Part shown: positions 218 through 23,103 of the stretch, piece after piece
How positions within the stretch are numbered: position 1 is the first letter of the stretch
Layout: the number at the start of each line of letters is the position of its first letter
Source of the DNA: Oscillospiraceae bacterium
Lineage (GTDB): Bacteria > Bacillota_A > Clostridia > Oscillospirales > Oscillospiraceae
Direction of reading: 5' to 3'
Assembly (NCBI GenBank): GCA_024690695.1
Contig: JAILOS010000033.1
Location: 1-55,584, forward strand
Length of the DNA stretch: 55,584 nucleotides
The notes under the pieces: generated by a model
Told to the model about the DNA's origin: nothing
What the model saw: the letters and a program-made list of their open reading frames with translations, nothing else
Database searches by the model: none
Program-made: the position numbers and the translations under genes

Positions 218-218
218 C

Positions 219-6727: not shown

Positions 6728-6781
6728 GGACTTCCCGCCGACACGCTGCCGGGCGGGGACGGGGCTTGCGCGTAAAACGAA

Positions 6782-6836: not shown

Positions 6837-6845
6837 TGTTTTACC

Positions 6846-6957
6846 TGTCATCCTGAGGAGCCGAAGGCGACGAAGGATCTGCAGGGAGAATGCGGAATGG
6901 AGGCAGGATTTTCCTCGTATTTTCGGTGCAGATTCTTCGCTGACGCTCAGAATGACA
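6846..6957. repeat. MITE-like inverted-repeat element (class E), copy 1
   Basis: Starts TGTCATCCTGAGGAG and ends CTCAGAATGACA, an imperfect terminal inverted repeat. Inner arms are GACGAAGGATCTGCAG and GCAGATTCTTCGC. The centre (about 45 bases) differs between copies. Related copies are at 14968, 20445, 37675 and 46743. No open frame inside. Confidence 0.75.
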
Positions 6958-6988
6958 GGCTTTTTTGGTTTCAGCGGAACGGGCGACC

Positions 6989-7128
6989 GTAGGGGCGGCT
7001 ATCAGCCGCCCGCCAATGAAAACCTCGTCTCTTCTCCGTAGGGGCGACCCTTGCGGTCGCCCGCCGCCTTCCCCGCCGCGGCGGAGAAGGCAGAGAGCGC
7101 GCGGGACGTCGAGGACGCCGTCCCCTAC
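6989..7128. repeat. REP repeat block 2
   Basis: Class A hairpin at 6993-7011 with GTAG at 6989-6992 (plus). Class B at 7042-7062 with GTAG at 7038-7041 (plus). Class C hairpin GGGACG...CGTCCC at 7103-7124 with its CTAC foot at 7125-7128 (minus). The 25-base spacer GCCAATGAAAACC...TCTCC between A and B is conserved at 465-487, 15161-15186 and 46592-46621. The remainder up to 7216 carries the fn3 3'-flank sequence. Confidence 0.8.
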
Positions 7129-7216
7129 GGGGTGGGGCGAGGGCTGCGCAGGCGGGCCGCGTTCCCTTCTCGTTCCACCTCATCCGTCATCCGCCGGGGT
7201 TTTTATACTTCAAAAA

Positions 7217-10200
7217 TTACTTCCTCGTCACGCTCCAGCCGAAGGAGTTGTAGGAGTTGATGTACATCTTGCCGTCCATCGAGATAGCGCGGACGGTGTA
7301 CCAGTACTTCACGCCCTTCTGCGCCGTCTTGTCGATGTAATTCGTGCCCTGCACGTCCGCGATGGCCTCCCACTGGCCGCCCTCGGTCTTGCGGAAGACG
7401 CGGAAGTTCTTCGCGCCGGCGGGCTTGGACCAGACGATCTTCACGCCGGTGGACACGTTCCCGAGCGCGGTGATCTTCGCCATCGCAATGTAGGTGCAGG
7501 TGCGGGGATTGCCCTGCGCGCTGCAGATGCGGCCGTTCGAGTCGACGCATTCGACCGTGTAGGTGTAGCGGCTCGCGGAGACGGCCGACGTGTCGATGAA
7601 GGTCAGCTCGGTGGTCTCGGCGATCGTCGACCACTCGGTCTCGTTCTTGGTGATGTTCTTGCGCAGCAGGCGGTATTTTACCGCGCCCTCGTTGGGCTTC
7701 CACGACACGCGCACGCCGGTGGCGCTGTTGAAGGCCTCGGTCAGCACCGGGGTCTCCAGCGGCTTCATGCTCCAGCCGGTGCCGTTGTAGGAGTTGATGA
7801 GCACGGTGTTGTCCATCGACACGCCGCGCACCGTGTACCAGTACTTCACGCCCTTTTCGGCGGTCGTATCGAGATACTCGGTGCCGAGCACGACGTCCAG
7901 AACCGTCCACTTCGCAACGCCGTCGACCCGGCGCATGACGCGGAAGTTCTTGGCTCCGGCGGGCTTCGACCATTTGAGGGACACGCCCTCGGCGGTCACG
8001 GTGATGTCGGTGATGTCGGCCTTCGCAATGTAGGTGCAGGTGCGGCCGGTCTCGTCGATCGGGCCCTCTTCGCCCTTGGCGTTGATCGGGCGCACGGTGA
8101 AGGTGTAGCGGCTGGCGGACTTGACCGTCTTGTCGATCAGCGTGCACTCGGTCGTCTCGCCGACGACGTGCCACTGCTTTTCACCGATGGTCAGGTTCTT
8201 GCGCAGGAGCTGGTACTTCACGGCGTCGTGCACCGGCTTCCACGACACGCGCACGCCCGTCGCGCTGTTGAAGGCCTCGGTGAGCACCGGGGCGGTAAAG
8301 CCGTCGAGCGCGGGGATCGCCACGGTCTTCTCGTCGGTGTATTCTTTCTCCCCGAGGGTCACCTTCGCGGTGTAGACGATTCTGCCCTCGACGCCGATCT
8401 GCGGATCGGTCGTCTCGCTCGTCACCGTCGCCGCAAGCTCGACGATGTGGCTCGGGTCGTTTTTGCAGGTGAAGGTCGCCGTCGCGGCGCGGTAATCCTC
8501 CGCCCAGGTCCACGTGGGCTCGCCCCAGACGTGGCCGGTGGCCGGGACGTTGCGCAGCGAGAAGCTCTGACGGTGGAAGGCGGGATTCTCAAAGCGCGCG
8601 GAGGTGTAGGTCGTTTCGCCGGGCTCGGTGCAGGTGGGCCGGATGCTGATCCGCGCCGTCACGGCGACGGTCTCGGTCTCGACATGGCTCGGGTCGCGGA
8701 CACAGGCGCGGGACGCGGCGAGCTCGCTGTAGTCGTCCGCCCAGCGGTAGGCCGGCTCGCCCCAGTCGTGGCCGAGGGCCGGAAGCTCGGTATAGCTCGT
8801 GTAATCGCAGCGCGTGCAGGTGTCGTACTCGGTCCAGCCGGGCTGCTCGCAGGTCGCGGCCTGCCCCTCGTGGTGCACGCGCTCGTGCAGCGCGCGGTAG
8901 CGCGGGCCGCTTTCGGCGTCCTCCTCGGGGTACCAGATCGGGCTGCCCCAGCGCATCTGGCCCTTGGCCCACTCGATCGCGTAGGAATCGCAGTTGGCGA
9001 CGAACAGGATGTTCGTGTAGTCGCTCTGAATGATTTGGCCGATGCTGGTGATGGTATCCGGGATGTAGACCGTCAAGTCGCTGCAGCCGTAGAAGGAGTA
9101 GCTTCTCAGCTCGGTCAGCTTGTCGCCCGGCTCGATCACCAGCTCGCGCAGGCCGTAGCAGTTTTCAAAGGGCATCATATTGCCGTAGCCCATGGTTCTG
9201 ACGTTGGCGGGGACCACGACGCGCTCCACGAGATAGCTGCCCGCGAAGGTGCCGTTGAGCCCGTCCACGAAGTCGGGCACGCGCACGTCGCTCTCCGAGC
9301 CGACGTACTTCCAGCACACCAGACCCTGATCGCTGTTCTGGCTGTAGCTGAGCATCCAGTCGGGGTAGCCCTCGTAGTAGAAATACGCGTAGGTCTGGCA
9401 GATCGCCGTGTCGGTGACGCTGCCGCGCTTGACGAAGAGCTTGGCCTTGTTCAGGGAGGGATAGCTTTCCAGATTGTCCTTGGAAATGTTGTCCGGCAGG
9501 TGGATCTCCAGCCCGGCCACGTCGGGGAAGGTTGAGCCGTGGAGCTTGGTCACCGTGGTGGGAATGTTGATCTTCTGCAGTCTGTCGCAGCCGGTGAAGA
9601 CGCTGTAGGAGATCTCCGTCAGACCGTCCGGCAGCTCGATCTCGGCGGCGAAGCGGCAGTCGGCAAAGGTCCCCGCCGTAAGCTTGGTGATGCCCTGCAG
9701 CACGACGATCTTTTTGATCTGGCTGCGGTAGGGCCGCCAGGCGACGTCATCGTGATAGCTGAGGTCGGCCGTAGCGCCGTCGCCCCAGACGGTCAGGGTG
9801 CCCTCGGCGTCAATGTTCCAGTACGTGCCGGAGTAGAGCCCGTTGACGGGCAGCTCGACGGCGCCCGGTTCGACGATGGCGAAGTATACCTCGCTGTACG
9901 AGCCGGAGAAGTTGCCGCAGAAGGTGATGCGGGCCGAGCAGTTGTCGCAGATATCGGTGCGGTTGCCTTCCTCGTAGTCCTTGCCCCAGTATTGCACCGT
10001 GTAGTCCGTGCCCTCGACGAGGGTGCGGCCGTCCAGCTTCCATTTGACCCGGATGTGGATGTCCACGGGGCTGCCGGTGTAGAGCACAGTCTTGTCGTAG
10101 GTCAGCGTGAAGTCGCGCTCGAGGTTGACCGGCATCGGGGTAACGTTGAAGGTGAAGGCGTGCTCGCCGCTGTAGTTGCCGAGGCCGCGGATCGTGACCG

Positions 10201-13200
10201 TCGCCTCGCCGGCGTTGACGTTGTTGGCGCAGCCGAGGATCTCGTAGTCGACGCCCTCGGTCAGATAGCGGGTCTTCTGATTGCCCTGCTCGTTGTAATA
10301 GTAGTTATAGAGCCTGACGGTCGGTTCCTGCGCCTGCCCGCTGTAGTAGGGATTTTCGATGTTGGTTCTGACCGTCTCGATCGCCATCGGGTCGATGGTG
10401 AAGGTCCCGGTCAGCGTGCCTTCGTAGTTGCCCATGCCGGTAGCGATGACCTGCGCCTCGCCGACGTTGACGTTGTTCGCGTAGCTCAGCGTGAAGCTCG
10501 AGCCCACGTAGAGCTCGTAGCCGTCCGCGGTCATGATCTTCGCCGAAGGCCGGAACTCGTGGCCGTCGTAGACGTGCGTATCCGTGTTGTAGGGATAGTT
10601 CTCCCGGCCCACCGTCATCGTGCAGCCCTCGAGCGAGGCGGGGTCGATGTCGAAATTGACGCTCGCTTCGCCGGTGTAGCGGCCGTTGCCGGTGACCGTG
10701 ACGGTCGCGGTGCCGGCGCTCACGTTGTTCTCATAGCTCACCGAGTAGTCCAGGCCGCGCCGCAGGAGCTTCTGCCCCACGTGGACGACGGGCTCTGGCG
10801 TGTGGGCCGTGCGGTCGTAGACGCAGAAGGGGATCGGGTCGATGACCGCCTCGACCGACAGATCGGCACGCTCGTAGATCTCGAACTCGAGCGTCCGCGT
10901 GCCGGCGTAGTTGCCGACGCCGGTCACCACGACGCGCGCCGTGCCGGGGTCGGTGTTGTTATAGTAGGCCACGGTGTAGTCCGTGCCCTCGTTCAGCGCC
11001 TTCGAGCCCCATTTGACCGTCACGCCCGGCGTGATCGGCTCGCCGGTCCAGGCCCAGCGATCGGCCGTCAGCATCGCCTTCAGGTTCGCGCTCGTCATCG
11101 AACGCGGCGCGATCGTGAAGTGCGCCACGCGCCGGCCGACGCAGGTGTTGCGATAGCCCGGGGTGATCGTCGCGGTCGCTTCGCCCGCGTTCGTGTAGTC
11201 GGAGTAGCTGACGTTGTAGTCGGAGCCGCTCTTGAGCGTGTAGCCGTTGCAGGTGATCGTCGGCTCGGGGGTCTGGCTGCTGCCGTTGTAGACCAGATCC
11301 TCGGGGAAGCTCACCGTGACCGCGTCGCTTGCGAGGTCGATCGCCGAGATCGTGTAGCTCTGGCTCAGCGCGCCCGCGTAGGGCCGCAGCGCGATGACCG
11401 TCAGCGTGGCGGTGCCGGGGCCGACGTAATTGCTGTACCGGCCGACGTAGTCCTTGCCCTTGGTCAGCGTCTTGCCGTTCCAGAGCACGGAGTAGTCGAG
11501 CGTCTGGCCCTGGCCGTTGTAGATGAGGCCCTCCAGCGAAGAGATGATCTTCAGCGTGCCGCCGTCGGCCAGGCTCTGCCGGTTGACAAGACCGGAGGCG
11601 TTGAAGGTCTTGCCGAAATTCCCCGTGGTGTATTTGAAGGAGACCGGCGTGCTCTTCGGCGTCTCCTGCCAGAAGGGGCCGACGAGATGCGTCACCGTGA
11701 CGATCAGCGTCTGATTCGGCAGGATGCCGTTGACGTAGCCGTCGGTGTAGATCTGCTCCTCGTCCACGCCCAGCATGGTGGTCGCGACCGTCGCATAGTT
11801 GAAGCCGCCGCTTTCCAGCCAGCAGTAGGACTCGGGGCCGTGGCCGGGCGCGCAGACGGTGGAGCCGCCGACGACATGGGCGACCGTGCCGTCGTCAAGA
11901 ATGACGTCGACGTAGATCTCCGCCTCCGTCGCCTCCGGATCGGTCTCCCAGGAGACGGCGAGGCCGGTCTCGAGCGGGGTGACCTCGACGTCCTGCGGGA
12001 TGTGCTGTGCGAGCTCCGCGTCCGTCAGGCGGCCCATCTCGTAGGTGACGGGCTCCTGCGTGTTGACGTAGCCCCAGCGCTGCACGTCCTCCAGCGTCCA
12101 GGGATTGTCCGTCACGACCACGCCGTTGGTGACGGTCAGCTTGCTGTAGGTGCTGTCGTTTACAAGCTGGCCCTTGTCGGTAAAGGTGACGGTGACGCTG
12201 CCAGCGGTCGCTCCGCTGCCGTTCATCCAGCCGTAGCCGTTGAAGGCCAGCTCCGCGCCCGCGTAGTTGTACAGCGCCATCACCGGGCCGTCGGACGTCA
12301 GATGCTGGATGAACAGCGGCGTGCCGGCCGTGTCGATCATCGTGCCGGTGAGGGTGTGCGTGTTCATCTGGATGTGCACCTCGGTGCCCTGCTCGAGCTT
12401 GAAGCCCTCGGCGGGGAGGACGGTGTCCTTCACCAGGGTGACCGTGGCCGTGCCGTAATCGTCATATTCCACGTTGCCGCTGCCGGAGAGAACGAACCAG
12501 ACCAGCGGATCGTCGGACTGCTCGACGTCCGGCTTCTCCACGGTAAAAGAGACCGTGTTGCCGGGGCAGGTCGTGCCGTTGACCACGGACGCCAGCGTCG
12601 CGTACACGACGTCGCCGTTCAGCAGGCCGTTCACCGCGCCGTCCGTGACCTTCTGCTCCGTGCCGTCGTCCAGGAAGGGCGCGGAAATCCAGACGTAGCA
12701 GCTGCTCCAGTACACCTCGGCCTCGCTGATGTTGAAGCCGCTCGTGCCGGGCACCAGCGGGCCGTCCGGCGCGCCGAGGCGCATGCTGACCGCGAAGTCC
12801 TCCACGCCGTCGACCTTGTTCCAGCGCAGCTCGGCCCGCGTGTAGATCACGTCCGTGTTCGGGTCGACAAGGAAGCCCTGGCTCCAGACCGAAACGCTCT
12901 TCGGCGCGTAGAGCTCGTCCAGCTCCTCCTGCGTCATGGCCTCCCAGATCGCGTAGAAGGTCATGCTCTCGCTGATGTCCAGCGGCGCGCCCGGCAGGAA
13001 CATCGGCGGGCCTTCGGGATCGACGCCCCAGCCGATGAAGTTGTAATACGCGCGGGTGAAGCCGCACTCGGGCGCATAGACCTCGTCGCCGTAGTAGTAG
13101 TAAAGGCTGTTCGTCCAGCCTTCGCCGCCGTTGCCGTCGAAGCGGATGGTGATCTGTCCGCCGCCGCCGGCCTCGGGGTCGTCCGCCGGCTCCTCGTCGG

Positions 13201-13420
13201 GCGTCGCCTCGGGCTCCTCGCCGGGCTCCGGCTCGGGTTCGGGCTCCGGTTCAGGGTCGGGTTCGCCCTCGAGCAGGATCATCGGGACGGGCTCCTCCTC
13301 GTCCTCGCCCTCCAGCACGATCAGTCCGTCGTCGGCGTAAACCGCCGGGACCATCGAGAGGCAGAGGGCCAGGCACAGAAGCAGCGCCAGCAGCCTTTTG
13401 CTTATGCATTTACCTGTCAT
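7217..13420 (-). CDS. Giant secreted multidomain protein: InlB-type, Ig-like, LRR and fn3 repeats
   Basis: 2067 residues. A signal peptide (1-30, ending PAVYADD) is followed by an acidic EP-repeat linker (about 33-85). Next is a Listeria-Bacteroides (InlB_B) type repeat at about 88-160 (ITIRFDGNGGEGW...IGWG), then jelly-like repeats to about 620. Seven Ig/MBG-like repeats follow (about 620-1190; LxEGTDYTVxYxNNxxAGTATVTVTGxGNYxGT), then a BspA-like LRR region (about 1190-1500) and two Cys-containing GHDWGEP modules. Four fn3-like units (about 1700-2067) end in GWSVTRK. There is no LPXTG, SLH or TM anchor, so it is secreted or held by its tail; adhesion is a guess. AAAAGGAGGACGCGAA precedes the ATG; a longer open frame upstream overlaps the DUF3021 gene and is not coding. 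It starts 41 bases after the LytTR-DUF3021 pair, probably in the same transcript. Confidence 0.88.
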   Translation of the reverse strand: MTGKCISKRLLALLLCLALCLSMVPAVYADDGLIVLEGEDEEEPVPMILLEGEPDPEPEPEPEPEPGEEPEATPDEEPADDPEAGGGGQITIRFDGNGGEGWTNSLYYYYGDEVYAPECGFTRAYYNFIGWGVDPEGPPMFLPGAPLDISESMTFYAIWEAMTQEELDELYAPKSVSVWSQGFLVDPNTDVIYTRAELRWNKVDGVEDFAVSMRLGAPDGPLVPGTSGFNISEAEVYWSSCYVWISAPFLDDGTEQKVTDGAVNGLLNGDVVYATLASVVNGTTCPGNTVSFTVEKPDVEQSDDPLVWFVLSGSGNVEYDDYGTATVTLVKDTVLPAEGFKLEQGTEVHIQMNTHTLTGTMIDTAGTPLFIQHLTSDGPVMALYNYAGAELAFNGYGWMNGSGATAGSVTVTFTDKGQLVNDSTYSKLTVTNGVVVTDNPWTLEDVQRWGYVNTQEPVTYEMGRLTDAELAQHIPQDVEVTPLETGLAVSWETDPEATEAEIYVDVILDDGTVAHVVGGSTVCAPGHGPESYCWLESGGFNYATVATTMLGVDEEQIYTDGYVNGILPNQTLIVTVTHLVGPFWQETPKSTPVSFKYTTGNFGKTFNASGLVNRQSLADGGTLKIISSLEGLIYNGQGQTLDYSVLWNGKTLTKGKDYVGRYSNYVGPGTATLTVIALRPYAGALSQSYTISAIDLASDAVTVSFPEDLVYNGSSQTPEPTITCNGYTLKSGSDYNVSYSDYTNAGEATATITPGYRNTCVGRRVAHFTIAPRSMTSANLKAMLTADRWAWTGEPITPGVTVKWGSKALNEGTDYTVAYYNNTDPGTARVVVTGVGNYAGTRTLEFEIYERADLSVEAVIDPIPFCVYDRTAHTPEPVVHVGQKLLRRGLDYSVSYENNVSAGTATVTVTGNGRYTGEASVNFDIDPASLEGCTMTVGRENYPYNTDTHVYDGHEFRPSAKIMTADGYELYVGSSFTLSYANNVNVGEAQVIATGMGNYEGTLTGTFTIDPMAIETVRTNIENPYYSGQAQEPTVRLYNYYYNEQGNQKTRYLTEGVDYEILGCANNVNAGEATVTIRGLGNYSGEHAFTFNVTPMPVNLERDFTLTYDKTVLYTGSPVDIHIRVKWKLDGRTLVEGTDYTVQYWGKDYEEGNRTDICDNCSARITFCGNFSGSYSEVYFAIVEPGAVELPVNGLYSGTYWNIDAEGTLTVWGDGATADLSYHDDVAWRPYRSQIKKIVVLQGITKLTAGTFADCRFAAEIELPDGLTEISYSVFTGCDRLQKINIPTTVTKLHGSTFPDVAGLEIHLPDNISKDNLESYPSLNKAKLFVKRGSVTDTAICQTYAYFYYEGYPDWMLSYSQNSDQGLVCWKYVGSESDVRVPDFVDGLNGTFAGSYLVERVVVPANVRTMGYGNMMPFENCYGLRELVIEPGDKLTELRSYSFYGCSDLTVYIPDTITSIGQIIQSDYTNILFVANCDSYAIEWAKGQMRWGSPIWYPEEDAESGPRYRALHERVHHEGQAATCEQPGWTEYDTCTRCDYTSYTELPALGHDWGEPAYRWADDYSELAASRACVRDPSHVETETVAVTARISIRPTCTEPGETTYTSARFENPAFHRQSFSLRNVPATGHVWGEPTWTWAEDYRAATATFTCKNDPSHIVELAATVTSETTDPQIGVEGRIVYTAKVTLGEKEYTDEKTVAIPALDGFTAPVLTEAFNSATGVRVSWKPVHDAVKYQLLRKNLTIGEKQWHVVGETTECTLIDKTVKSASRYTFTVRPINAKGEEGPIDETGRTCTYIAKADITDITVTAEGVSLKWSKPAGAKNFRVMRRVDGVAKWTVLDVVLGTEYLDTTAEKGVKYWYTVRGVSMDNTVLINSYNGTGWSMKPLETPVLTEAFNSATGVRVSWKPNEGAVKYRLLRKNITKNETEWSTIAETTELTFIDTSAVSASRYTYTVECVDSNGRICSAQGNPRTCTYIAMAKITALGNVSTGVKIVWSKPAGAKNFRVFRKTEGGQWEAIADVQGTNYIDKTAQKGVKYWYTVRAISMDGKMYINSYNSFGWSVTRK

Positions 13421-13461
13421 TTCGCGTCCTCCTTTTGTTTCGGTCTGTCGGTATATGGTAT

Positions 13462-13917
13462 TTACTTTGCTTTTTCCCTGTCGTTGAGCTCGTTGAGCTC
13501 GCGTACCTCGGCCTTGTAGCGCCGGTAGAGGATCAGCCAGATGGCGAAGAAGCCGACGGTCATGATCGCCTCCGTGATCAGCAGCGCCGGGAGCGGCTGA
13601 TCCCAGCGCAGCAGCCGGGAGGTCAGCGCGTAGCCGCCCGCGATCAGCAGATAGTGCGCGGCGGTCGCCAGCGCGAGCGGCCAGCGCTCGATATCGTAGA
13701 GCAGCGTTCCGCCGAAGCACAGCGCGCCGTACAGCCCATAGAGCACCAGCGTCATCAGGATCGCCGGCGTCGCGCCGCCGCAGAGCGCGAGCAGGCCCTC
13801 GCTGACGAGCCGTATGCTCCCGTCCTCCGCGTGATTGATCAGCGTGGGGATGAGCATGACCGCCGTCAGCCCGACGAGAGCGCCGAAGCCGCAGCGATTC
13901 AGGATTTTCTTTTTCAT
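13462..13917 (-). CDS. DUF3021 family membrane protein
   Basis: 151 residues with four hydrophobic helices (GFGALVGLTAVMLIP, ILMTLVLYGLYGAL, LALATAAHYLLIAGGYAL and LLITEAIMTVGFFAIWLI) and a charged C-terminus (RRYKAEVRELNELNDREK). DUF3021 proteins nearly always sit beside a LytTR regulator, as here, and are thought to act as its membrane-bound partner or inhibitor; the mechanism is not settled. The ATG at 13917 lies 8 bases after AAAGGAG. A GTG nine bases upstream would overlap the LytTR stop but has no room for a ribosome site. Confidence 0.85.
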   Translation of the reverse strand: MKKKILNRCGFGALVGLTAVMLIPTLINHAEDGSIRLVSEGLLALCGGATPAILMTLVLYGLYGALCFGGTLLYDIERWPLALATAAHYLLIAGGYALTSRLLRWDQPLPALLITEAIMTVGFFAIWLILYRRYKAEVRELNELNDREKAK

Positions 13918-13922
13918 GCCGC

Positions 13923-14381
13923 TCACTCCTTTCCCGTCAGCCGTTTGCGGATCTGCGGGATGCAGCGGCGGGAGGCCCAGGTCTCCATCCCGCCCGCCAG
14001 CTCCAGACGCAGCGTGCCGCTCCAGGTGAAGTCGAATTTCCGTACCTTGTCGAGGTTAACGAGCTCGTAGCGCGAGATGCGCACGAAGCGGCGGCCGTCC
14101 AGCTCCTTTTCCAGGCTCTGCAGCGACTGGCGCGCCGTGTAAACGCCGTCCTCGGTCACGAGCCGGACCTGCTTGCCGTTGACCGAGACCGACACGATCT
14201 CGTCCGCCCCCAGGCGGCGCAGCGCGCCGTCCGGCCCCGCGGCCGTCAGCAGCTCCGGCGGATGCGCGCCGATGCGCTCCAGCAGCGCGTCCAGCTCTTC
14301 GCCGCGCTCGCTCGCGCGGACCAGCACCTCGATCCGTTCGAGCGAGGGATCCTGCTCGAAGCGGACTATGATCTCTTTCAC
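13923..14381 (-). CDS. LytTR-type DNA-binding transcriptional regulator
   Basis: 152 residues. The C-terminal half is a LytTR domain: EIVSVSVNGKQVRLVTEDGVYTARQSLQSLEKEL, then GRRFVRISRYELVNLDKVRKF. The N-terminal half (KEIIVRFEQDPSLERIEVLVRA...) lacks a receiver-domain Asp, so it is a stand-alone LytTR protein of the DUF3021-associated type. LytTR proteins bind imperfect direct repeats upstream of target promoters. Natural targets would be its own operon, including the giant secreted protein; that is inference. It overlaps the upstream Cys-rich gene by ATGA. Confidence 0.88.
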   Translation of the reverse strand: MKEIIVRFEQDPSLERIEVLVRASERGEELDALLERIGAHPPELLTAAGPDGALRRLGADEIVSVSVNGKQVRLVTEDGVYTARQSLQSLEKELDGRRFVRISRYELVNLDKVRKFDFTWSGTLRLELAGGMETWASRRCIPQIRKRLTGKE

Positions 14382-14581
14382 AGGGCATCACCGCCTTTTT
14401 TGTGCGAGGGATGCGCGCAGCCTCCCCCGGAAGCCGCCTGATAGCGGCACCCGCCGCAATCCGCCGCCGTATCCCCCGCGAGAGGGCACCAGCTCTGGTG
14501 CGGCCAGCCGGTTTTCGTCCGGCAGACCCGGCAGGCAAACAGCGGACAGTCGGCGGCGATCGGAAGCCGTTCTCCGGTCAT
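14378..14581 (-). CDS. Small cysteine-rich protein of unknown function
   Basis: 67 residues with seven cysteines, including C17-x2-C20 and C42-x2-C45, plus C12, C32 and C55 and several His. The pattern suggests a metal-binding knuckle, probably zinc. No signal peptide or TM segment. It is the first gene behind a promoter and overlaps the LytTR start by four bases, so it is co-translated with the regulator. AAGGGAGAGGCT precedes the ATG. I do not recognise the family; a role as a co-regulator or sensor is only a guess from position. Confidence 0.65.
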   Translation of the reverse strand: MTGERLPIAADCPLFACRVCRTKTGWPHQSWCPLAGDTAADCGGCRYQAASGGGCAHPSHKKGGDAL

Positions 14582-14640
14582 AGCCTCTCCCTTCCGCGCC
14601 CGGCGCGCAGCGCGCCGGGGCGATGTCAACAGTTGATTTT

Positions 14641-14669
14641 ATAATATTAAATCCGCCCGGCGAGCGCAA
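14641..14669 (-). promoter_or_regulatory. Promoter of the Cys-rich/LytTR/DUF3021 operon
   Basis: On the minus strand: TTGCGC (14669-14664), 17-base spacer, TATTAT (14646-14641). The leader to the first ATG contains a GC-rich hairpin (about 14598-14617). A second TTGACA at 14629-14624 lacks a -10 at the right distance. Confidence 0.55.
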
Positions 14670-14709
14670 GCGCTTTGGCTCAGGCGGCAGAAAATGCGGC
14701 ATAAACGGC

Positions 14710-14900
14710 GGGCGGATGATAGCCGCCCCTACGGTGTGGGGACGAGGCTTGCGCGGGCGGGCGGATGAAACGCCTCCCCTGCGAGGGGAGGCGTCCTCGG
14801 CGGCCTGCCGCCGAGGACGGAGGGGTTTTGAAAGCCCTCAGTCGGCTGCGCCGACAGACCCAAGACCCCTTTCGGGGGAGCCTCAGGGGAACCATAGAAA
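14710..14900. repeat. Multi-hairpin spacer
   Basis: A class A-like REP with one stem mismatch (14710-14728) is followed by a chain of hairpins. These are CGCCTCCCCTGCGAGGGGAG (14770 on), GTCCTCGGCGG...CCGCCGAGGAC (14792-14817), GTCGGCTGCGCCGAC (14841-14855) and CCCCTTTCGGGGG. A near-copy in opposite orientation is at 46890-47025. No coding potential is evident. Confidence 0.65.
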
Positions 14901-14902
14901 AG

Positions 14903-14945
14903 CCGGGCGGGAGCAAGGTTTCCAAGAAGCCTTGCTCCCGCCCGG
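14903..14945. repeat. Class D inverted repeat, copy 3
   Basis: CCGGGCGGGAGCAAGG (14903-14918) pairs with its complement at 14930-14945, with a slightly larger loop than copy 1. GGCTGTTTTTTTC follows on the plus strand, but no plus-strand gene precedes it. Confidence 0.75.
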
Positions 14946-14967
14946 GCTGTTTTTTTCAACTTTTCCT

Positions 14968-15040
14968 TGTCGTTCTGAGCGTCAGCGAAGAATCCGCAGC
15001 ACAATGCGGAATGCTCCCTGCAGATCCTTCGTCGCCTGCG
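14968..15040. repeat. Class E element, copy 2 (truncated)
   Basis: Begins TGTCGTTCTGAGCGTCAGCG and reaches the right inner arm GATCCTTCGTCGCCTGCG. The outer right end is missing and replaced by ATCTCGCGGAAATGCCGCGG, which itself recurs at 15110-15130. Confidence 0.7.
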
Positions 15041-15067
15041 ATCTCGCGGAAATGCCGCGGTGATCCC

Positions 15068-15363
15068 GTAGGGGCGACCCTTGCGGTCGCCCGCTGCCTT
15101 GGCGCCCGCGATCTCGCGGAAACACCGCGGCGATCCCGTAGGGGCGGCTATCAGCCGCCCGCCAATGAAAACCTCGTCTCTTCTCCGTAGGGGCGACCCT
15201 TGCGGTCGCCCGCTGCCTTCCCTGCCGCGGCGGGGAAGGCAGAGAGAGCGCGGGACGTCGAGGACGCCGTCCCCTACGGAGAGGGGCGAGGCTTGCGCGG
15301 GCCGCGTTCCCTTCTCGTTCCACCTCATCCGTCATCCGCCTTCCCCGCCGGCGGGGAAGGCTT
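15068..15363. repeat. REP repeat block 3
   Basis: Class B at 15072-15092 (GTAG 15068-15071, plus). Class A at 15142-15160 (GTAG 15138-15141, plus). Class B at 15191-15211 (GTAG 15187-15190, plus). Class C at 15252-15273 (CTAC 15274-15277, minus). GCCTTCCCCGC hairpins are at 15214-15240 and 15339-15363. The segment 15295-15345 is the fn3 3'-flank sequence. Confidence 0.8.
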
Positions 15364-15386
15364 TTTTCGCCGGTTTTTTATACTTC

Positions 15387-18300
15387 TTACTTCCTCGTCA
15401 CGCTCCAGCCGAAGGAGTTGTAGGAGTTGATGTACATCTTGCCGTCCATTGTGATCGCGCGGACGGTGTACCAGTACTTCACGCCCTTCTGCGCCGTCGT
15501 ATCGAGGTAACCGGTGCCCTGAACATCCTTGATCGCGGTCCATTCGCCGCCCTCGGTCTTGCGGAAGACGCGGAAGTTTTTCGCGCCGGCGGGCTTCGAC
15601 CAGACGAGCTTGACGCCGTTCGTCACGCTGCCGATCGAGGTGATCTTCGCCATCGCAATGTAGGTGCAGGTGCGGGGATTGCCCTGCGCGCTGCAGATGC
15701 GGCCGTTCGAGTCGACGCATTCGACCGTGTAGGTGTAGCGGCTCGCGGAGGCCGCCGACGTGTCGATGAAGGTCAGCTCGGTGGTCTCGGCGATCGTCGA
15801 CCACTCGGTCTCGTTCTTGGTGATGTTCTTGCGCAGCAGGCGGTACTTCACCGCGCCCTCGTTGGGCTTCCACGACACGCGCACGCCGGTGGCGCTGTTG
15901 AAGGCCTCGGTCAGCACCGGGGTATTCAGCGGCTTCATGCTCCAGCCCGTGCCGTTGTAGGAGTTGATCAGCACCGTGTTGTCCATCGACACGCCGCGCA
16001 CCGTGTACCAGTACTTCACGCCCTTTTCGGCGGTCGTGTCGAGATACTCGGTGCCGAGCACCACGTCGAGCACCGTCCACTTCGCAATGCCGTCGACCCG
16101 GCGCATGACGCGGAAGTTTTTGGCGCCTGCGGGCTTGGACCAGGTGAGCTTCACGCCGTCGGCCGTCACGGTGATATCGGTGATGTCCGCTTTGGCAATG
16201 TAGGTGCAGGTGCGGCCGGTTTCGTCGATCGGGCTCACGTTGCCGTCGGCGTCGATCGCGCGGACCGTGTAGGTATAGCGGTTGGAGGACTTCGCCGTCT
16301 TGTCGATGAGGCTGCACTCCGCCGTCTCGCCGACGACCTTCCAGCGCGTCTCATTCAGAGTCAGATTCTTGCGCAGCAGCTCGTACTTGACCGCGCCGTT
16401 GACCGCTCTCCAGCTCACACGCACACCGGTGGCGCTGTTGAAGGCCTCGGTCAGCTCGGGAGCCCGCAGGCCCTCCAGCGCGGGGATCTCGACCGTCTTC
16501 TGATCGCGGAATTCGATCTCTTCAAAGATCACCGTCGCCGTGTAGACGGTCCTGCCCTCGACGCCGATCTGCGGATCGGTCGTCTCGCTCGTCACCGTCG
16601 CCTCGAGCGCGACGACGTGGCTCGGGTCAACCAGGCAGGTGAAGGTCGCCGTCGCGGCGCTGTAATCCTCCGCCCAACTCCACGCGGGCTCGCCCCAGTC
16701 GTGCACATGCGGCTGCTCGGCCTCGGTGATGGCGAAGTACTCCGTCAGCACGTCGGCCCAGTCCTTGCCGACGAGCTCCTGAATGGCGAGCTGATAGGTC
16801 CCGATCTCCACCGGGAAGGCGTCGATCTCGACGAATTCCTTGCCTTGCAGCTCACGCCAGACGAGACGGGCCTCGCCGCGCTTCTCCAGCTCGTCCCAGG
16901 AGCTCTTGCCGCCGTCGACGCGGATGTTTTTCGCGGGGTCGAAGTCGATCGGCTCGCCGTCGTAGCTCTTGTCGTAGGGCGTGCCGAGGAATTCGTAGCT
17001 GTGCTCGCCGATCGGCTCCGCCGGAACCTGGTTCCAGTAGAGATACACCGGGTATTCGGTCAGCTCGCCGAGCTCAGGATTCGCGCTGCCGGTGCTCCAC
17101 AGGGCGCGGGTGAAGAAGACCTCGCCGTCGGCGTCCTTCGCCAGCAGATAGCTTCCGTGGCCCAGGTTCGGCTCGAAGGCCGTGAAGGCCTGGGTCTCGG
17201 GGTCGATATCCACGTAGAAGCCGTCGTCGCCGGTCCAGCCGCCGCCGCGCCAGACCGAGCCGTTGGCGCCGCCGAAATAGACGTTCCAGCTCGTGCCGGT
17301 GACAAGCTGCAGCAGATTCCGCTCGGGATGCGAGGCGTCGCCCCAGCGGTGATAGTTCGGGTCGCGGCGCATGCAGAACACGTTCTCGCGCAGCTCGCCC
17401 AGCGACACGACGCCGTTTTCATCCGGCTCCGCCGGGATCGCCTCGGCGCGGAGAGTTCCCTCGGGCTCGGGCATCGCCATGACGTAGAGCTGCCCGTCGA
17501 TCTCGCCCATGATGGAGTAGAGGTACCAGCGGGCGCCGGTGGTGATATCGTCGTAATTCGTCACGCGCACGAACTGCGTCGGAGTGATCTCGAACCAGAC
17601 GCTCGGAGAGATCGCGCGCGTCACGCCGTCGAGCGTCTGCGTCAGGACCGCCCGGTAGCTGCCGACGCGGGCCGGGCCGGTAAAGTAATTGCTGTTCCGG
17701 CCGTCGTAGTCGATGATCGCGGGCTCGCCCGTCCAGTCGTCGATCCACTGCACGCCGATCTCGCCGAGCAGCGCCAGCTCGTCCTCGCTGTACTCGCTCA
17801 TCGGACGGCCGTCCAGCAGGATCTTTTCCTTCCAGGCGACGAAGGCGCCTTCGTAGTACTGGCCGGTGCCGTAGTAATGGCTGTAGTTGCTGACCTCCAG
17901 GATATGGCCGCCGACCCGGTAGGGCCCGGTGTGCTCGACGACCCTGCGGTACAGGGACAGGCCGGTGGGCAGCGGGACCTCGGTCGTGCCGCCGGTCTCC
18001 GGGTCCTCGATCCAGCTCCAGGCCTCGCCGTCGTACTGCCTGAAGCAGAGCTCCTCGTCGTAGACGAAGGGATGCGAGGAGTCGAAATAGTGGATGACGG
18101 CGTCGTCCTCCCCGCGGATGTTGAAGTACAGCGCGGTGGGGAACTGGTATTCTCGCACCTCCACCGGGTTTCCTTCCTCGTCCTCGTCGTACCAGAGCTC
18201 ATAGTTCAGCTCGTAGTCGTCTGTGAGCATATCCGTAAAGGACAGCGGACGCTCAAAGTCCCAGCTGTAGTCCTCCACGAAGGAGAAGCCGCCCTCGATC

Positions 18301-20216
18301 AGCGCCGGGTAGCCGTCGTCACCGCCCGCGGCGGCGTATTCCTCATCCGGGTTCTCCAGCAGCCGGAAGGGCGCGCCGCCCGTCCCGTAGACCGTGAGAA
18401 GCCCGTCGGGCAGCTGCACGGTCGGCTCGGTCGCGGCGTCCAGATCGGGAACGATCCAGCCGCCCTCTCCGTCGGAGACCGGGCGCGGCAGATCCAGCGC
18501 AAGGCCGGTCACGGCGTCCACGATCAGGTAGTCGTTGCCGGGGCAGACCATTGAAATGTCGGTGACCGGCTCATAGACCGGGGCCGCCTCGCCGCAGCGG
18601 GAGCACACGCCCGTTCCGTGGTCGTAGTCGTGGCCGAGCGCCGGGCTCGTCACGAAGGAGCGGAGGTCGTAGGTCCCGTAGAAGGTCGAACCGTCCCAGT
18701 CCATGGAGACGCAATAGACGTCCTCGGCCGCGTCCAGATACTTGCCGCAGTCCGGGCAGTAGTAATACAGCGTGTGGCCGTAATGCGTGCAGTCGGGCTC
18801 GCGGGCCGGACAGGCGATCTTGTTCGGGTGCTCGCAGGGCTTCAGATAGAGCAGCAGCTCGCAGTTATCCGGGTAAGCGCCGTACTGGGCGGCGTCCGTG
18901 CTCGTCCGATCGCTGAGGACGAAGCTGCCGCCGCTGAAGGTCAGAAACCAGATCCACTCGCCGAAGTGAACGCCCTTGTCGTAGTTGTACAGATAGCAGG
19001 CCAGGCGGTGGATCATCGCGGCGGCGTCGTCAAAATCGCGCCACTCGGCCGTATAGCCGTCGTTGGGCGTGCCGACCGCGAGAACGGCCCTGCCGGCGTC
19101 CTCGTCCGTGAGCTTCGCGTAGAGCATGCCGCCGCCCTGCAGGCCGAAGTCCGCGTCCAGCACGGCCGCCGAGCCGCTCAGCCCGTCCTCCGTCACGGTG
19201 AGCGCGGAGGCGGCGACGGAATTGCCGGACACGTTGAGCGCACGGTAGGTATCGCCCGCGCGCGCGACGATCACCATCTGATAGTCGCCCTCCGCGCAGA
19301 TATCAAAGCCGCGGCTGAGACGGAAAACCGTGCCGTCGACGTTGAAGAGATCCGGCGCGGGCAGCTCCGGCTCCTCGATCTCGGCCAGAACGGTCATCGT
19401 CGTGTTCACGGAAAGATTGTAGTCTTCATCGCCCTCGCCGCCGTAGACCAGGATCGACTCGTACATCTCCGGCATTTCCTTGAACTTCTCCAGACGGCGG
19501 CCGCCGGCCAGGTAGTCCCTGACCAGCGAGGGGCAGAGGCGGATGTCGACAACCAGCAGATCCGGGTTGCCGCAGACGTCCAGTTTTTCAAGCTTCGTAT
19601 TATTGTGCAGGTTGAGCTCGCTGAAATGGCTGTTGTCCGCCCAGAGTCTGAGCAGCTTTTCGTTCCGGCTCAGGTCGATCTCCGACAGCTCCGTAAAGCC
19701 GAGCGACAGCGTTTCGAGCTTCGTGAGCATCGTCACGTCGATGGTCTCGATCGGGTTGAAGGCCAGATTTACGGAGCGCAGCCGGCGGTTGAAGCTCAGA
19801 TCGACCTCGGTGAGCTGACCGGGCACGCCGAAATCGCCGCTGCAGTCGAGCAGGCGGAGATTGTCGAAATACTCCACGCCCTTGAGCGACGCAACGCCGC
19901 TGCAGGCGAGATCGAGCTCCGTCACAGCGAGCATCTCGTTGACGGAGAGCCAGCCGTTGCGGTCCGTGTCGACGTTTTCGAGGACGTAGGCGCGGAAGGT
20001 CTCGTCCGGGAAGCTCTCCCCGTCGATCTCAAACACGTCGTAGTCGTCCTCCTCATCGAGCAGCGGAAGCGCGTCGTCCGCCTCGCCGTCGAGGGAAATC
20101 AGCTCCGCGTCTTCTTCCCCGTCGAGCAGGATAATTCCGTCGTCGGCCAGGCCGGCGGGGATCATGCTCAGCATCATGGCAAAAATCAGCAGGAAACTCA
20201 GCAGCTTCTTTTTCAT
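15387..20216 (-). CDS. Large secreted protein with EF-hand loop, leucine-rich repeats and fn3 tail
   Basis: 1609 residues. A signal peptide (1-25, MIPAGLADD) is followed by an acidic stretch. A canonical EF-hand-type calcium loop, DTDRNGWLSVNE, lies at residues 83-94. Short LRRs (about 97-230) have the form LTEVDLSFNRRLRSVNLAFN and KLETLSLGFTELSEIDLSRN. A long middle region contains Cys-pair modules (CEHPNKIACPAREPDC, CPDCGKY, CSRCGE) and a GHDYDHG/HDWGEP motif, and four fn3-like units (about 1190-1609) end GWSVTRK. No cell-wall anchor is seen. The start has AGGGAGGG upstream and its own promoter. The tail is nearly the same as in the flanking paralogues, while the N-terminal two-thirds is unrelated, suggesting a shared sorting or adhesion module. 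Function unknown. Confidence 0.88.
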   Translation of the reverse strand: MKKKLLSFLLIFAMMLSMIPAGLADDGIILLDGEEDAELISLDGEADDALPLLDEEDDYDVFEIDGESFPDETFRAYVLENVDTDRNGWLSVNEMLAVTELDLACSGVASLKGVEYFDNLRLLDCSGDFGVPGQLTEVDLSFNRRLRSVNLAFNPIETIDVTMLTKLETLSLGFTELSEIDLSRNEKLLRLWADNSHFSELNLHNNTKLEKLDVCGNPDLLVVDIRLCPSLVRDYLAGGRRLEKFKEMPEMYESILVYGGEGDEDYNLSVNTTMTVLAEIEEPELPAPDLFNVDGTVFRLSRGFDICAEGDYQMVIVARAGDTYRALNVSGNSVAASALTVTEDGLSGSAAVLDADFGLQGGGMLYAKLTDEDAGRAVLAVGTPNDGYTAEWRDFDDAAAMIHRLACYLYNYDKGVHFGEWIWFLTFSGGSFVLSDRTSTDAAQYGAYPDNCELLLYLKPCEHPNKIACPAREPDCTHYGHTLYYYCPDCGKYLDAAEDVYCVSMDWDGSTFYGTYDLRSFVTSPALGHDYDHGTGVCSRCGEAAPVYEPVTDISMVCPGNDYLIVDAVTGLALDLPRPVSDGEGGWIVPDLDAATEPTVQLPDGLLTVYGTGGAPFRLLENPDEEYAAAGGDDGYPALIEGGFSFVEDYSWDFERPLSFTDMLTDDYELNYELWYDEDEEGNPVEVREYQFPTALYFNIRGEDDAVIHYFDSSHPFVYDEELCFRQYDGEAWSWIEDPETGGTTEVPLPTGLSLYRRVVEHTGPYRVGGHILEVSNYSHYYGTGQYYEGAFVAWKEKILLDGRPMSEYSEDELALLGEIGVQWIDDWTGEPAIIDYDGRNSNYFTGPARVGSYRAVLTQTLDGVTRAISPSVWFEITPTQFVRVTNYDDITTGARWYLYSIMGEIDGQLYVMAMPEPEGTLRAEAIPAEPDENGVVSLGELRENVFCMRRDPNYHRWGDASHPERNLLQLVTGTSWNVYFGGANGSVWRGGGWTGDDGFYVDIDPETQAFTAFEPNLGHGSYLLAKDADGEVFFTRALWSTGSANPELGELTEYPVYLYWNQVPAEPIGEHSYEFLGTPYDKSYDGEPIDFDPAKNIRVDGGKSSWDELEKRGEARLVWRELQGKEFVEIDAFPVEIGTYQLAIQELVGKDWADVLTEYFAITEAEQPHVHDWGEPAWSWAEDYSAATATFTCLVDPSHVVALEATVTSETTDPQIGVEGRTVYTATVIFEEIEFRDQKTVEIPALEGLRAPELTEAFNSATGVRVSWRAVNGAVKYELLRKNLTLNETRWKVVGETAECSLIDKTAKSSNRYTYTVRAIDADGNVSPIDETGRTCTYIAKADITDITVTADGVKLTWSKPAGAKNFRVMRRVDGIAKWTVLDVVLGTEYLDTTAEKGVKYWYTVRGVSMDNTVLINSYNGTGWSMKPLNTPVLTEAFNSATGVRVSWKPNEGAVKYRLLRKNITKNETEWSTIAETTELTFIDTSAASASRYTYTVECVDSNGRICSAQGNPRTCTYIAMAKITSIGSVTNGVKLVWSKPAGAKNFRVFRKTEGGEWTAIKDVQGTGYLDTTAQKGVKYWYTVRAITMDGKMYINSYNSFGWSVTRK

Positions 20217-20271
20217 GCTTGCGCCCTCCCTTTTTCTTTCGGTGGTTTATTCTTCTTTTTTGCCATTTTTT

Positions 20272-20300
20272 ATCATAGCACAGCCGACCGGTCAATTCAA
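20272..20300 (-). promoter_or_regulatory. Promoter of the LRR-fn3 gene
   Basis: Minus strand: TTGAAT (20300-20295), 17-base spacer, TATGAT (20277-20272), 55 bases before the ATG. Confidence 0.7.
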
Positions 20301-20377
20301 GCCGCGGGGGAAATAATTCGGGGCCGCGGGGAGACCCTCTGAAAAGCGCCTCCCCTGTAAGAGGAGCCATAGAAAAG

Positions 20378-20420
20378 CCGGGCGGGAGCGAGGTTTCCCG
20401 GAAACCTCGCTCCCGCCCGG
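20378..20420. repeat. Class D inverted repeat, copy 4
   Basis: Perfect 21-base arms at 20378-20398 and 20400-20420. This copy has GAGCGAGG where the others have GAGCAAGG, with the matching change in the other arm, a compensatory pair that keeps the stem. Confidence 0.78.
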
Positions 20421-20444
20421 GCTGTTATCTTGTCAACTTTTACT

Positions 20445-20560
20445 TGTCATCCTGAGGAGCCGCAGGCGACGAAGGATCTGCAGGGAGAATTTGGAACGGC
20501 GGGAACGGGATCTTCCTTGCTTTTTCGGTGCAGATTCTTCGCTGACGCTCAGAATGACAG
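20445..20560. repeat. Class E element, copy 3
   Basis: Complete copy: TGTCATCCTGAGGAGCCGC at the left, CGCTCAGAATGACA at the right. The length and central AT-richer stretch resemble copy 1 at 6846. Confidence 0.75.
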
Positions 20561-20588
20561 ACTTTTTTTGCATTTCAGCAGAACGGGC

Positions 20589-20690
20589 GGGCGGCTGATA
20601 GCCGCCCCTACGGAGAGGGGCGAGGGCTGCGCAGGCCGCGTTCCCTTCTCGTTCCACCTCATCCGTCATCCGCCGGGGGTTTTTATACTT
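20589..20690. repeat. REP block 4 and fn3 3' flank
   Basis: Class A hairpin at 20589-20607 with its CTAC foot at 20608-20611 (minus). The common fn3 3'-flank sequence (GCGTTCCCTTCTCGTTCC at 20638 onward) runs up to the stop codon of the next gene. Nothing else is seen. Confidence 0.78.
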
Positions 20691-20691
20691 A

Positions 20692-23103
20692 TTACTTGCG
20701 CGTCACCGACCAGCCGTAGCTGTTGTAGGAATTGATGTACATGCTGCCGTCCATCGTGATCGCGCGGACCGTGTACCAGTACTTCACGCCTTTTTCGGCG
20801 GTGGTGTCGGTGTAGGTCGTGCCCTGCACGTCCGTCAGCGCCGTCCAGGTGTTTTCGCCGTCGACCTTGCGGAAGATGCGGAAGTTCTTCGCGCCCGCGG
20901 GCTTCGACCAAGTGAGCTTGACGCCGTTCGTCACGCCGCCGATCGACGTGATCTTCGCCATTGCGATGTAGGTGCAGGTGCGGGGGTTCCCCTGCGCGCT
21001 GCAGATGCGGCCGTTACTGTCGATGCACTCGACCGTGTAGGTGTAGCGGCTGGCCGACGCGGCGCTTGTGTCGATGAAGGTCAGCTCCGTCGTCTCCGTG
21101 ACCGTCGACCAATCGGCCTCTTCCTTCGTCAGGTTTTTGCGCAGCAGGCGGTATTTCACCGCGCCGTCGTTGGGCTTCCACGACACGCGCACGCCCGTCG
21201 CGCTGTTGAAGGCCTCGGTGAGGACGGGGGTCTCGAGCGGCTTCATGCTCCAGCCCGTGCCGTTGTAGGAGTTGATCAGCACCGTGTTGTCCATCGACAC
21301 GCCGCGCACCGTGTACCAGTACTTCACGCCCTTTTCGGCGGTCGTGTCGAGGTATTCGGTGCCGAGCACCACGTCGAGGACCGTCCACTTCGCCGTTCCG
21401 TCGGGGCGACGCATGACGCGGAAGTTTTTGGCGCCTGCGGGCTTCGACCACTGGAGGCGCACGCCCTCGGCGGTCACGGTGATGTCGGTGACGTCGGCCT
21501 TCGCAATATAGGTGCAGGTGCGGCCCGCCTCGTCGTAAAGACCGGTCGTTCCGTCTCCGTCGATCGCGCGCACGGTGAAGGTGTAGCGGCTGGCGGAGGC
21601 GACCGTTTTGTCGATGAGGCTGCACTCCGCCGTCTCGCCGACGACCGTCCACTCGGTCTCATTCTTCGTCAGATTCTTGCGGAGCAGCTCATACTTCACG
21701 GCGCCGTCCACCAGCAGCCAGCTCACGCGCACGCCGGTGGCGCTGTTGAAGGCCTCGGTCAGCTCGGGGGCGGGAAGCGACTTGATTATGACCTGAATAC
21801 GTGCGCCGTTGGAATATGCCACGCCGCCGGGGCCTTTGAACATGGCCTCCACACACCATCCGTCCATTTTGGCCGGAACGCGGACGATCTCCAGCGTTTC
21901 ACTATCCAGACCGTTGATCTCACAGCCGAAATACTCTGCCGCTTCAGCCGCCGGTATCATCGTCGCAGCGTCCGGACTGTAAAAACGCCAGGCGATCTCG
22001 GTATAGTATTCCGCCCGCGCTATGAACGTGACCGAACCGCCTTCATATACGATTTCCCCGGCCGGATGCTTGGTAATAAAGGGCTTCGGCACGTAGTCGG
22101 TCGGCCCCATCGGGTAGGCGGCGAAAAACGCCTCGCTGCAGTAGGGCTCCTCGCGCTCGTGATCGGGGTCGCCGAAGGTTTCCGCTTCCATCGAGCGGAG
22201 GAACCAATAATAGCGCGACAGCCCCGCATCCCAGGTGGAGTCGGCGTTGTAGTAATAGCCGTCGTCCATCCGGATGATGTTCCAGGCGTGGGTATAGCTC
22301 GTGACGATGCGGCTGTCCACGCCCTCGGTCAGCAGCATCCGGTAGAGCAGCAGCGCGTAGCCCTGGCAGACCGCCGTGCCGTCGATCAGCGCGGCGTAGG
22401 CCGTGAACTGGAGCACGTATTCGTCGTCTTCATAATGCTCGTAGTCGTATACGACGTTGTCGCAGAGATAGCGGTAGATCGCCAGCGTCTTGCCGTAGTC
22501 GCCCAGACCGTCCAGATCCAGACCGCCCAGCACGGTCTCGACAGCGGCGTCCAGCTCCCGCTCCTGCTCGGCCGTCGTGTAGTAGTCGGCCGCGAGCGTC
22601 CCTTCAAAGACGCGCGCGCCGCCCTTGTACTGATAGCTGTACGACCAGCCGTAGCCGCCGAGCTGCCAGCGCAGATAGTCGCCCTCGGTCGGCTCGCCGG
22701 TGTGCGCCATGGCGCTCTCCAGCAGCGCCGCCGTGTCGAAGGTCTCGTCCGGGGCGAGAACGACCCGGAAGTCGATCTCGTTATCCCGCTGCTTCATGCC
22801 CTCGCGCAGCAGCTCGGTCAGGCCCTCCGTGCCTTCGCAGTCGACGGGCTCGCCGTTCGCGTTCTGCAGCGTGTCGCTCAGACGGCTGTACAGCGCCTCC
22901 TCGTCGATCAGCCCGCGGTAGAGCGGATTGACCGCCAGCTCCGTTTCGCTGCGGACCGGCCCTTCCTCCTCCTCGAGGCGGATCGTCTCAAAAGACGGCT
23001 CCTCCGCGGGCGCGGCCGGGCCGTCGTCGGCAAAAGCCGCCGGGAACAGGCCCGCCAGCAGCGCCAGCGCCAGCAGCAGCGACAGGATCCTCTTGAACTT
23101 CAT
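20692..23103 (-). CDS. Secreted transglutaminase-like protein with fn3 tail
   Basis: 803 residues. A signal peptide (1-26, LLAGLFPAAFADD) precedes a transglutaminase/protease-like (TGc) domain at about 200-300. Its triad is intact: C246 in GTAVCQGYA, H272 in YTHAWNII and D288 in YYNADSTWD. An Ig-like region (about 340-440) and four fn3-like units (442-803) end GWSVTRK. TGc domains in bacterial exported proteins can cleave or crosslink proteins or peptidoglycan stem peptides; which one applies is unknown. AAAGGAGGAGCTAACG precedes the ATG, and a consensus promoter lies just upstream. It is the third of three adjacent secreted genes with the same tail. Confidence 0.88.
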   Translation of the reverse strand: MKFKRILSLLLALALLAGLFPAAFADDGPAAPAEEPSFETIRLEEEEGPVRSETELAVNPLYRGLIDEEALYSRLSDTLQNANGEPVDCEGTEGLTELLREGMKQRDNEIDFRVVLAPDETFDTAALLESAMAHTGEPTEGDYLRWQLGGYGWSYSYQYKGGARVFEGTLAADYYTTAEQERELDAAVETVLGGLDLDGLGDYGKTLAIYRYLCDNVVYDYEHYEDDEYVLQFTAYAALIDGTAVCQGYALLLYRMLLTEGVDSRIVTSYTHAWNIIRMDDGYYYNADSTWDAGLSRYYWFLRSMEAETFGDPDHEREEPYCSEAFFAAYPMGPTDYVPKPFITKHPAGEIVYEGGSVTFIARAEYYTEIAWRFYSPDAATMIPAAEAAEYFGCEINGLDSETLEIVRVPAKMDGWCVEAMFKGPGGVAYSNGARIQVIIKSLPAPELTEAFNSATGVRVSWLLVDGAVKYELLRKNLTKNETEWTVVGETAECSLIDKTVASASRYTFTVRAIDGDGTTGLYDEAGRTCTYIAKADVTDITVTAEGVRLQWSKPAGAKNFRVMRRPDGTAKWTVLDVVLGTEYLDTTAEKGVKYWYTVRGVSMDNTVLINSYNGTGWSMKPLETPVLTEAFNSATGVRVSWKPNDGAVKYRLLRKNLTKEEADWSTVTETTELTFIDTSAASASRYTYTVECIDSNGRICSAQGNPRTCTYIAMAKITSIGGVTNGVKLTWSKPAGAKNFRIFRKVDGENTWTALTDVQGTTYTDTTAEKGVKYWYTVRAITMDGSMYINSYNSYGWSVTRK

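Follow-up and report, generated by a model that had tools for sequence, protein, structure and literature searches.

Several attachment modules described in Gram-positive bacteria (SLH, CWB2, ChW, choline-binding and, for scaffolds, dockerin) consist of a repeated C-terminal module that is carried by unrelated secreted heads. Runs of fn3 domains in extracellular bacterial proteins, in turn, are often spacers or binding modules. WxL proteins are described as combining a C-terminal domain with varied N-terminal parts, and as being held non-covalently at the cell surface (PMC9772566, PMC10599100). The giant surface proteins of Apilactobacillus are reported to be encoded by neighbouring genes that undergo short within-gene recombination (PMC12863079), and GTAG-tagged REPs are described as palindromes with an adjacent GTAG that lie mostly downstream of genes (PMC3733652).

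Here we describe a tail of four fn3 domains that, like the attachment modules, recurs at the C-terminus of otherwise unrelated proteins with signal peptides, and that occupies the same position as these modules on relatives of one such head. It differs from them in its predicted fn3 fold and in that its anchoring role is a putative one; profiles for SLH, CWB2, ChW, choline-binding and dockerin modules had no match in the three proteins analysed (A, B and C) or in the tail of C. The tail proteins resemble WxL proteins, as outlined in the sources consulted (PMC9772566, PMC10599100), in their varied N-termini and common C-terminal domain, and no WxL match was detected in Pfam profile scans of A, B, C or the C tail. 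They differ from LPxTG sortase substrates, since none of the 25 tail proteins identified presents LPxTG in its last 80 residues. As neighbouring and recombining genes for large, putatively surface-held proteins, A, B and C are similar to those of Apilactobacillus (PMC12863079), which encode other protein families and for which the abstract mentions no common fn3 tail.

Neighbouring genes with a common tail

The window, that is, the whole stretch of DNA analysed, encompasses 55,584 nucleotides of an Oscillospiraceae contig (JAILOS010000033.1) and has a G+C content of 65%. As stated in the original prediction, it contains three adjacent genes for secreted proteins (Table 1), which lie on the minus strand and all terminate in GWSVTRK. 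A database record of 2067 residues (P0087) fits gene A. The two further tails proposed in the window are also real and lie on the plus strand, with the first, originally placed at 1-158, now read from position 3. Elsewhere in the window, an FHA domain and an FtsW/RodA-type protein form a fusion, which is followed by a penicillin-binding transpeptidase (1001-3987, plus strand), genes of the VTC domain, DUF4956 and Cthe_2159 types are consecutive at 52620-55492 (plus strand), and three predicted genes on the minus strand (28562-29842, 37872-39056 and 47097-47837) have no Pfam match at E 0.001.

Table 1. Coordinates of the genes, tails, silent-identity tracts and flanks in the window.
Feature	Position	Strand	Length
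Gene A: signal peptide, repeats, LRR_5, four-fn3 tail	7217..13420	-	2067 aa
Gene B: signal peptide, internalin-like LRR, uncharacterised region, four-fn3 tail	15387..20216	-	1609 aa
Gene C: signal peptide, transglutaminase-like domain, four-fn3 tail	20692..23103	-	803 aa
Tail of A	7217..8290	-	
Tail of B	15387..16460	-	
Tail of C (structure predicted)	20692..21768	-	
Tail end L (gene cut by window edge, head unseen)	3..158	+	
Headless tail O (end of d3, then d4)	46048..46380	+	
A side of A-B silent-identity tract (converted from alignment 423-822)	7469..7867	-	
B side of A-B silent-identity tract (converted from alignment 423-822)	15639..16037	-	
3' flank of A (hairpin 6784-6822)	6772..7216	-	
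3' flank of B (hairpin 14905-14943)	14893..15386	-	
3' flank of C (hairpin 20380-20418)	20368..20691	-	
3' flank of L (hairpin 720-758)	159..778	+	
3' flank of O (hairpin 46839-46877)	46381..47025	+	
Control: intergenic, same dispersed repeats, no tail	37457..37871	.	

The heads had been taken to be unrelated, and they do differ, but the 81 residues immediately N-terminal of the tail are 73% identical between A and B. The signal peptide regions of the three proteins show short, weak similarity. Among the domains originally assigned to the heads, LRR_5 in A (above the Pfam cut-off, with a List-Bact repeat just under it) and the transglutaminase-like domain in C were recovered, the latter bearing its Cys, His and Asp motifs at 245, 272 and 288, in that order, whereas the EF-hand of B and the Ig-like repeats of A, assigned by eye only, had no Pfam match above cut-off. 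The head of B contains an LRR_4 match just under the Pfam cut-off and a long stretch without any Pfam match, and matches NCBIfam InlJ with E 1e-10, far below the cut-off of that model. Genes for a LytTR regulator and a DUF3021 protein (13420-14381, minus strand) precede gene A with a gap of 41 bases, and A and this regulator may share a transcript; for B and C, separate promoter-like sequences were recognised by eye.

Layout and predicted fold of the tail

The tails of A, B and C span 357-358 residues, arranged as four C-terminal fn3 domains (d1 to d4). Their pairwise protein identity is 83-88%, and their DNA identity ranges from 69 to 100% in 90-nt windows. The description of these domains as four nearly identical units applies to the same unit across genes, but not to the units within one tail, which are of two alternating types (d1-d2, d3-d4) with a period of 180 residues; identity between the two halves of a tail is 63-67% across a stretch of 300 nt and reaches 86% within one of 105 nt.

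The AlphaFold2 model of the C tail comprises four fn3 sandwiches (mean pLDDT 94.3, pTM 0.77), each predicted to adopt the seven-strand fold of fn3 domains. Foldseek searches with this model returned four-domain fibronectin fragments at ranks 2-4 (E 5e-14 to 1e-12), with a query TM of only 0.31-0.36 that we attribute to differing inter-domain angles. The tail is thus alike in predicted fold to the fn3 domains (PF00041) of bacterial extracellular proteins, and the scores of tail C (36.2 bits) and of tail protein P0016 (27.4) lie above the curated Pfam cut-off of 25 bits, whereas those of the whole A (18.5) and B (16.7) proteins fall under it. The strict two-pair C-terminal layout and the sequence TEAFNSATGVRVSW, invariant in d1 and d3, also set the tail apart.

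Across 19 tails, strong conservation was observed for TEAFNSATGVRVSW in d1 and d3, and for PAGAKNFRV and INSYN..GWS in d2 and d4. Loops are conserved like strands in d2 (0.79 for loops, 0.77 for strands) and d4 (0.79 and 0.80), and less so in d1 (0.70 and 0.86) and d3 (0.70 and 0.88). Judged by strand order, the conserved d2 and d4 segments lie within, or adjacent to, the BC and FG loops. These loops are a common ligand-binding site of fn3 domains, and those of d2 and d4 perhaps bind a ligand too.

The original prediction noted that no LPXTG, SLH or transmembrane anchor exists in these proteins, and this was corroborated by the absence of SLH matches in A, B and C, of LPxTG in their last 80 residues and of any other stretch with a hydrophobicity equal to that of the signal peptide. 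The suggestion that the tail might be a secretion signal did not hold, given that an ordinary N-terminal signal peptide does secretion. The terminal GWSVTRK was likewise discarded as a sorting signal: it maps to the final strand of d4 and the residues immediately following, has a counterpart (GWSM) in d2 and looks structural.

Distribution of the tail

The tail motif was identified in 25 of 189 protein records, with A, B and C among the 25 and three of our own translations set aside from the count. Two motifs and a C-terminus at the end of the tail are found in 19 of these 25 proteins (20 by script, corrected for the truncated record P0043); the others are P0011, P0020, P0062, P0065 and P0090. 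A simple pattern detects a signal peptide in 21 of the 25, excluding P0011, P0017, P0043 and P0062, some of which look truncated. In other Oscillospiraceae the tail follows LRR, transglutaminase, caspase (P0018) and subtilase (P0104) heads. The secreted P0018, with 703 residues, carries its caspase-like head at 38.8 bits against a cut-off of 21.4.

The other tails among the 19 are 55-95% identical to that of C, and the nearest named relatives are Oscillospiraceae MAGs. In both tail searches, scoring covered the roughly 8000 candidates with the most words in common, and one search is represented by the best 120 of 588 matches. In the wider fn3 family the fn3 run is often not C-terminal, and many of the relatives listed have a transglutaminase or some other domain at their C-terminus. 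A scan of named genomes with a single tail produced 17 pattern matches, none of them a relative, and a scan with alignment A1 produced one relative, L001, with 68% identity in its best segment. Among the genomes around L001, 17 of 101 match the tail at E 1e-3, mostly through distant fn3 domains; stricter searches retained 2 of 102 at 1e-60 and 1 of 400 at 1e-70, and identity above 40% over most of the tail was seen in G001 only. A PDB profile search with alignment A2 returned LRR-column matches and a few fn3 chains, with nothing on function, and a small literature search over partial texts found no paper on this tail.

Gene conversion between tail copies

The comparison of silent codons was based on 358 codon columns, of which 291 specify an identical residue in all three genes; 88 of these 291 are variable. 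Third positions are strongly C/G-biased, with a chance identity of 0.48 at four-fold sites, and the comparison with the other gene pairs is therefore essential. A block of excess silent identity was detected between A and B (permutation P 1e-4). In alignment positions 423-822, a tract picked from the same data that it tests, 125 silent codons are the same and 6 different (131 in total), compared to 142 and 42 (184) elsewhere (Fisher 4.8e-6). Silent identity in this tract is unchanged for A-C (P 0.48) and B-C (P 0.33), indicating that local constraint is not the explanation of the A-B tract.

For the pairs involving C, no clear tract emerged. The longest silent run of B-C spans 38 codons at 417-528 (P 0.002), and its best segment yields P 0.019 on all silent codons and 0.39 on polymorphic codons; the corresponding values for A-C are 0.27 and 0.001. 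The headless copy O is also a mosaic, with five alternating A-like and B-like blocks over 30 sites at which A and B differ (P 1.8e-4) and C-like bases near its end.

A simpler account would be that whole genes were duplicated and that their heads were later replaced or diverged beyond recognition, with no subsequent conversion. The neighbouring position, single orientation and common 3' flanks of A, B and C fit such a history, as does the similarity of their signal peptide regions. Plain duplication does not, however, accommodate the rise in A-B silent identity, which is 0.69 in d1 and reaches 0.97 in d3 with the pairs that include C remaining at 0.73-0.76, nor the mosaic structure of O, nor a tail 95% identical to that of C in a protein (P0006) whose transglutaminase part has no detectable similarity to C, and we regard it as scarcely probable. 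Taken together with the tail tree described below, these patterns support conversion among the tail copies.

Tail phylogeny and head kinship

In the tree of 19 tails, P0006, which has a transglutaminase-LRR head, groups with gene C and with P0007, its own contig neighbour. P0021 and P0014, 52% and 45% identical to P0006 in the transglutaminase part, are nonetheless placed elsewhere, and constraining P0006 with P0021 (p 1e-74) or with both P0021 and P0014 (p 4e-94) was rejected. The transglutaminase part of P0006 did not match the C protein at E 1e-3. This case hence indicates that heads and tails have partly separate histories. The original prediction of a converting 3' module is thus sustained by the A-B silent tract, by the mosaic O and by one case of conflict between the tail tree and head kinship.

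P0014 groups with P0013 of the same contig (support 86/88). Conversely, P0008 and P0016 share a contig and are apart in the tail tree, A, B and C do not form one clade (p 0.0135), and the groupings P0007 with P0012 (p 0.198) and P0008 with P0009 (p 0.059) were not rejected, all of which points to partial homogenisation.

3' flanks and the headless copy

Homology was originally proposed to continue past the stop codon into a common flank. It does so in all five copies, but much of the flank is a dispersed GTAG-type repeat. Insertions aside, the five flanks have in common the ~90 bases that follow the stop codon and a terminal hairpin on GGGCGGGAGC, which occurs at five places in the window, all at tails. 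GTAG-tagged palindromes and other repeats lie in between, in sets that vary among flanks. The tail and flank of O are 92.9% identical to the 3' end of B over 980 columns. The sequence GTAGGGGCGGCT is found at 8 places and GTAGGGGCGACC at 6, and 13 of these 14 lie within the five flanks; the other, at 37761, is in an intergenic region with the same repeats and no tail (Table 1), so the flank is best described as shared ancestry plus dispersed repeats. The window repeats are like GTAG-tagged REPs, as these are outlined in PMC3733652, in their GTAG tag beside a palindrome (read by eye) and in their position within the window, and differ in that no transposase was recognised. Rfam had no match in the window.

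The original prediction also envisaged a mobile module, and the tail and its flank could be conceived as a 3' cassette that is moved by REP-mediated or other transposition and fuses to new heads. The existence of a headless tail with a complete flank and the restriction of the hairpin to the five tails of the window are compatible with this. O begins inside d3, with no in-frame ATG, GTG or TTG (by eye) between the preceding stop and 46048, and may represent a copied 3' end or, equally, a gene that lost its head. A short frame in flank L (517-690, plus strand), which we take to resemble the C-terminus of a REP-associated transposase, would also favour mobility, but it had no match to any Pfam or NCBIfam profile. 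No transposase was recognised at O, and target-site duplications were sought by eye, without defined ends emerging. Furthermore, the tail had no match in 50,697 phage records, only two weak Streptomyces matches (25-26% identity) in 72,556 plasmid records and no confirmed relative in viral contigs. In L001, the tail is followed by a different hairpin (by eye), which implies that the flank belongs to the lineage and not to the tail as such, and that the two do not travel together between lineages. A mobile cassette is consequently very unlikely.

A putative role in surface retention

The heads related to that of C were examined through the best 120 of 1675 matches at E 1e-10 (119 without C), using precomputed Pfam domains. 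An attachment module is present in 71 of the 119 relatives listed: SLH (21), CWB2 (19), dockerin (15), ChW (14) or choline-binding (2). None of these 71 contains fn3, compared to 24 of the 48 others listed (P 3.7e-12), and the pattern persists after clustering the listed proteins at 60% identity into 62 clusters (0 of 33 versus 14 of 29, P 2.7e-6). LRR_5 is not so excluded, accompanying an attachment module in 16 of 26 listed proteins (hand count). In eight proteins checked, the best stretch of the attachment module lies C-terminal to the transglutaminase domain. This position and the mutual exclusion of fn3 and attachment modules indicate that the fn3 tail takes the place of an attachment module, and the exclusion could in part reflect a rule of one C-terminal module per protein. 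Among the fn3 relatives listed, a choline-binding model is matched as well by P0058, P0060 and P0180, and P0080 and P0082 have a membrane-like stretch at their end; in tail protein P0104, dockerin and cohesin gave weak internal matches that do not reach the cut-off. At the genome level no exclusion between tail-like matches and SLH was found (7/17 versus 43/102, hand count), and the absence of sortase was discarded as a reason for the tail, with sortase present in 100 of 102 genomes of the related set.

Judging from these sequence comparisons, the tail is most likely a module for surface retention whose copies are kept similar by gene conversion. It would hold unrelated heads on the cell surface by non-covalent means, and all tails would bind one common surface ligand, perhaps via the BC and FG loops that are conserved in d2 and d4. 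Homologous gene conversion, probably aided by the common 3' sequence, exchanges sequence among the tail genes; the tails of one genome therefore tend to remain similar, and the heads keep their own descent. The fold in this scheme is a predicted one, and we infer the retention, the ligand, the role of the loops and the help of the flank. Taken as a whole, the combination of non-covalent retention and conversion is a plausible explanation that we put forward tentatively, as it falls somewhat short of being probable.

Alternatively, the tail might be a stalk, or a binder of dietary or host glycans, in proteins that are released or held by other means, with conversion still shaping it. This would agree with the frequent use of fn3 runs as spacers or binding modules, with the non-terminal fn3 runs of many wider-family relatives listed and with a nearly universal sortase in the related set. 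A spacer should nevertheless co-occur with attachment modules as LRR_5 does, and none of the 24 listed fn3 proteins meets this expectation; moreover, the tail of the close family is C-terminal in 19 of 25 proteins. We consider a stalk or external binder possible but doubtful. Returning to surface retention, a more specific and rather unlikely version would make the tail a new class of non-covalent anchor in the Oscillospiraceae, used like SLH or CWB2, with d2 and d4 loops that bind a lineage-specific polysaccharide and conversion that keeps the anchors matched to their ligand. The window harbours a polysaccharide locus at 24204-37456 (minus strand), with sugar transferases, dTDP-sugar genes, a WbqC-like gene and an ABC exporter, and this locus is a possible source of the ligand.

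The tail family provides a clear bacterial case of a C-terminal module exchanged between paralogues with unrelated N-terminal parts. Many secreted proteins of gut Clostridia contain fn3 repeats and no anchor recognised by profiles. If the tail is an anchor, many proteins labelled only as fn3-containing would become predictable surface proteins, and the tail might be usable for surface display in such bacteria.
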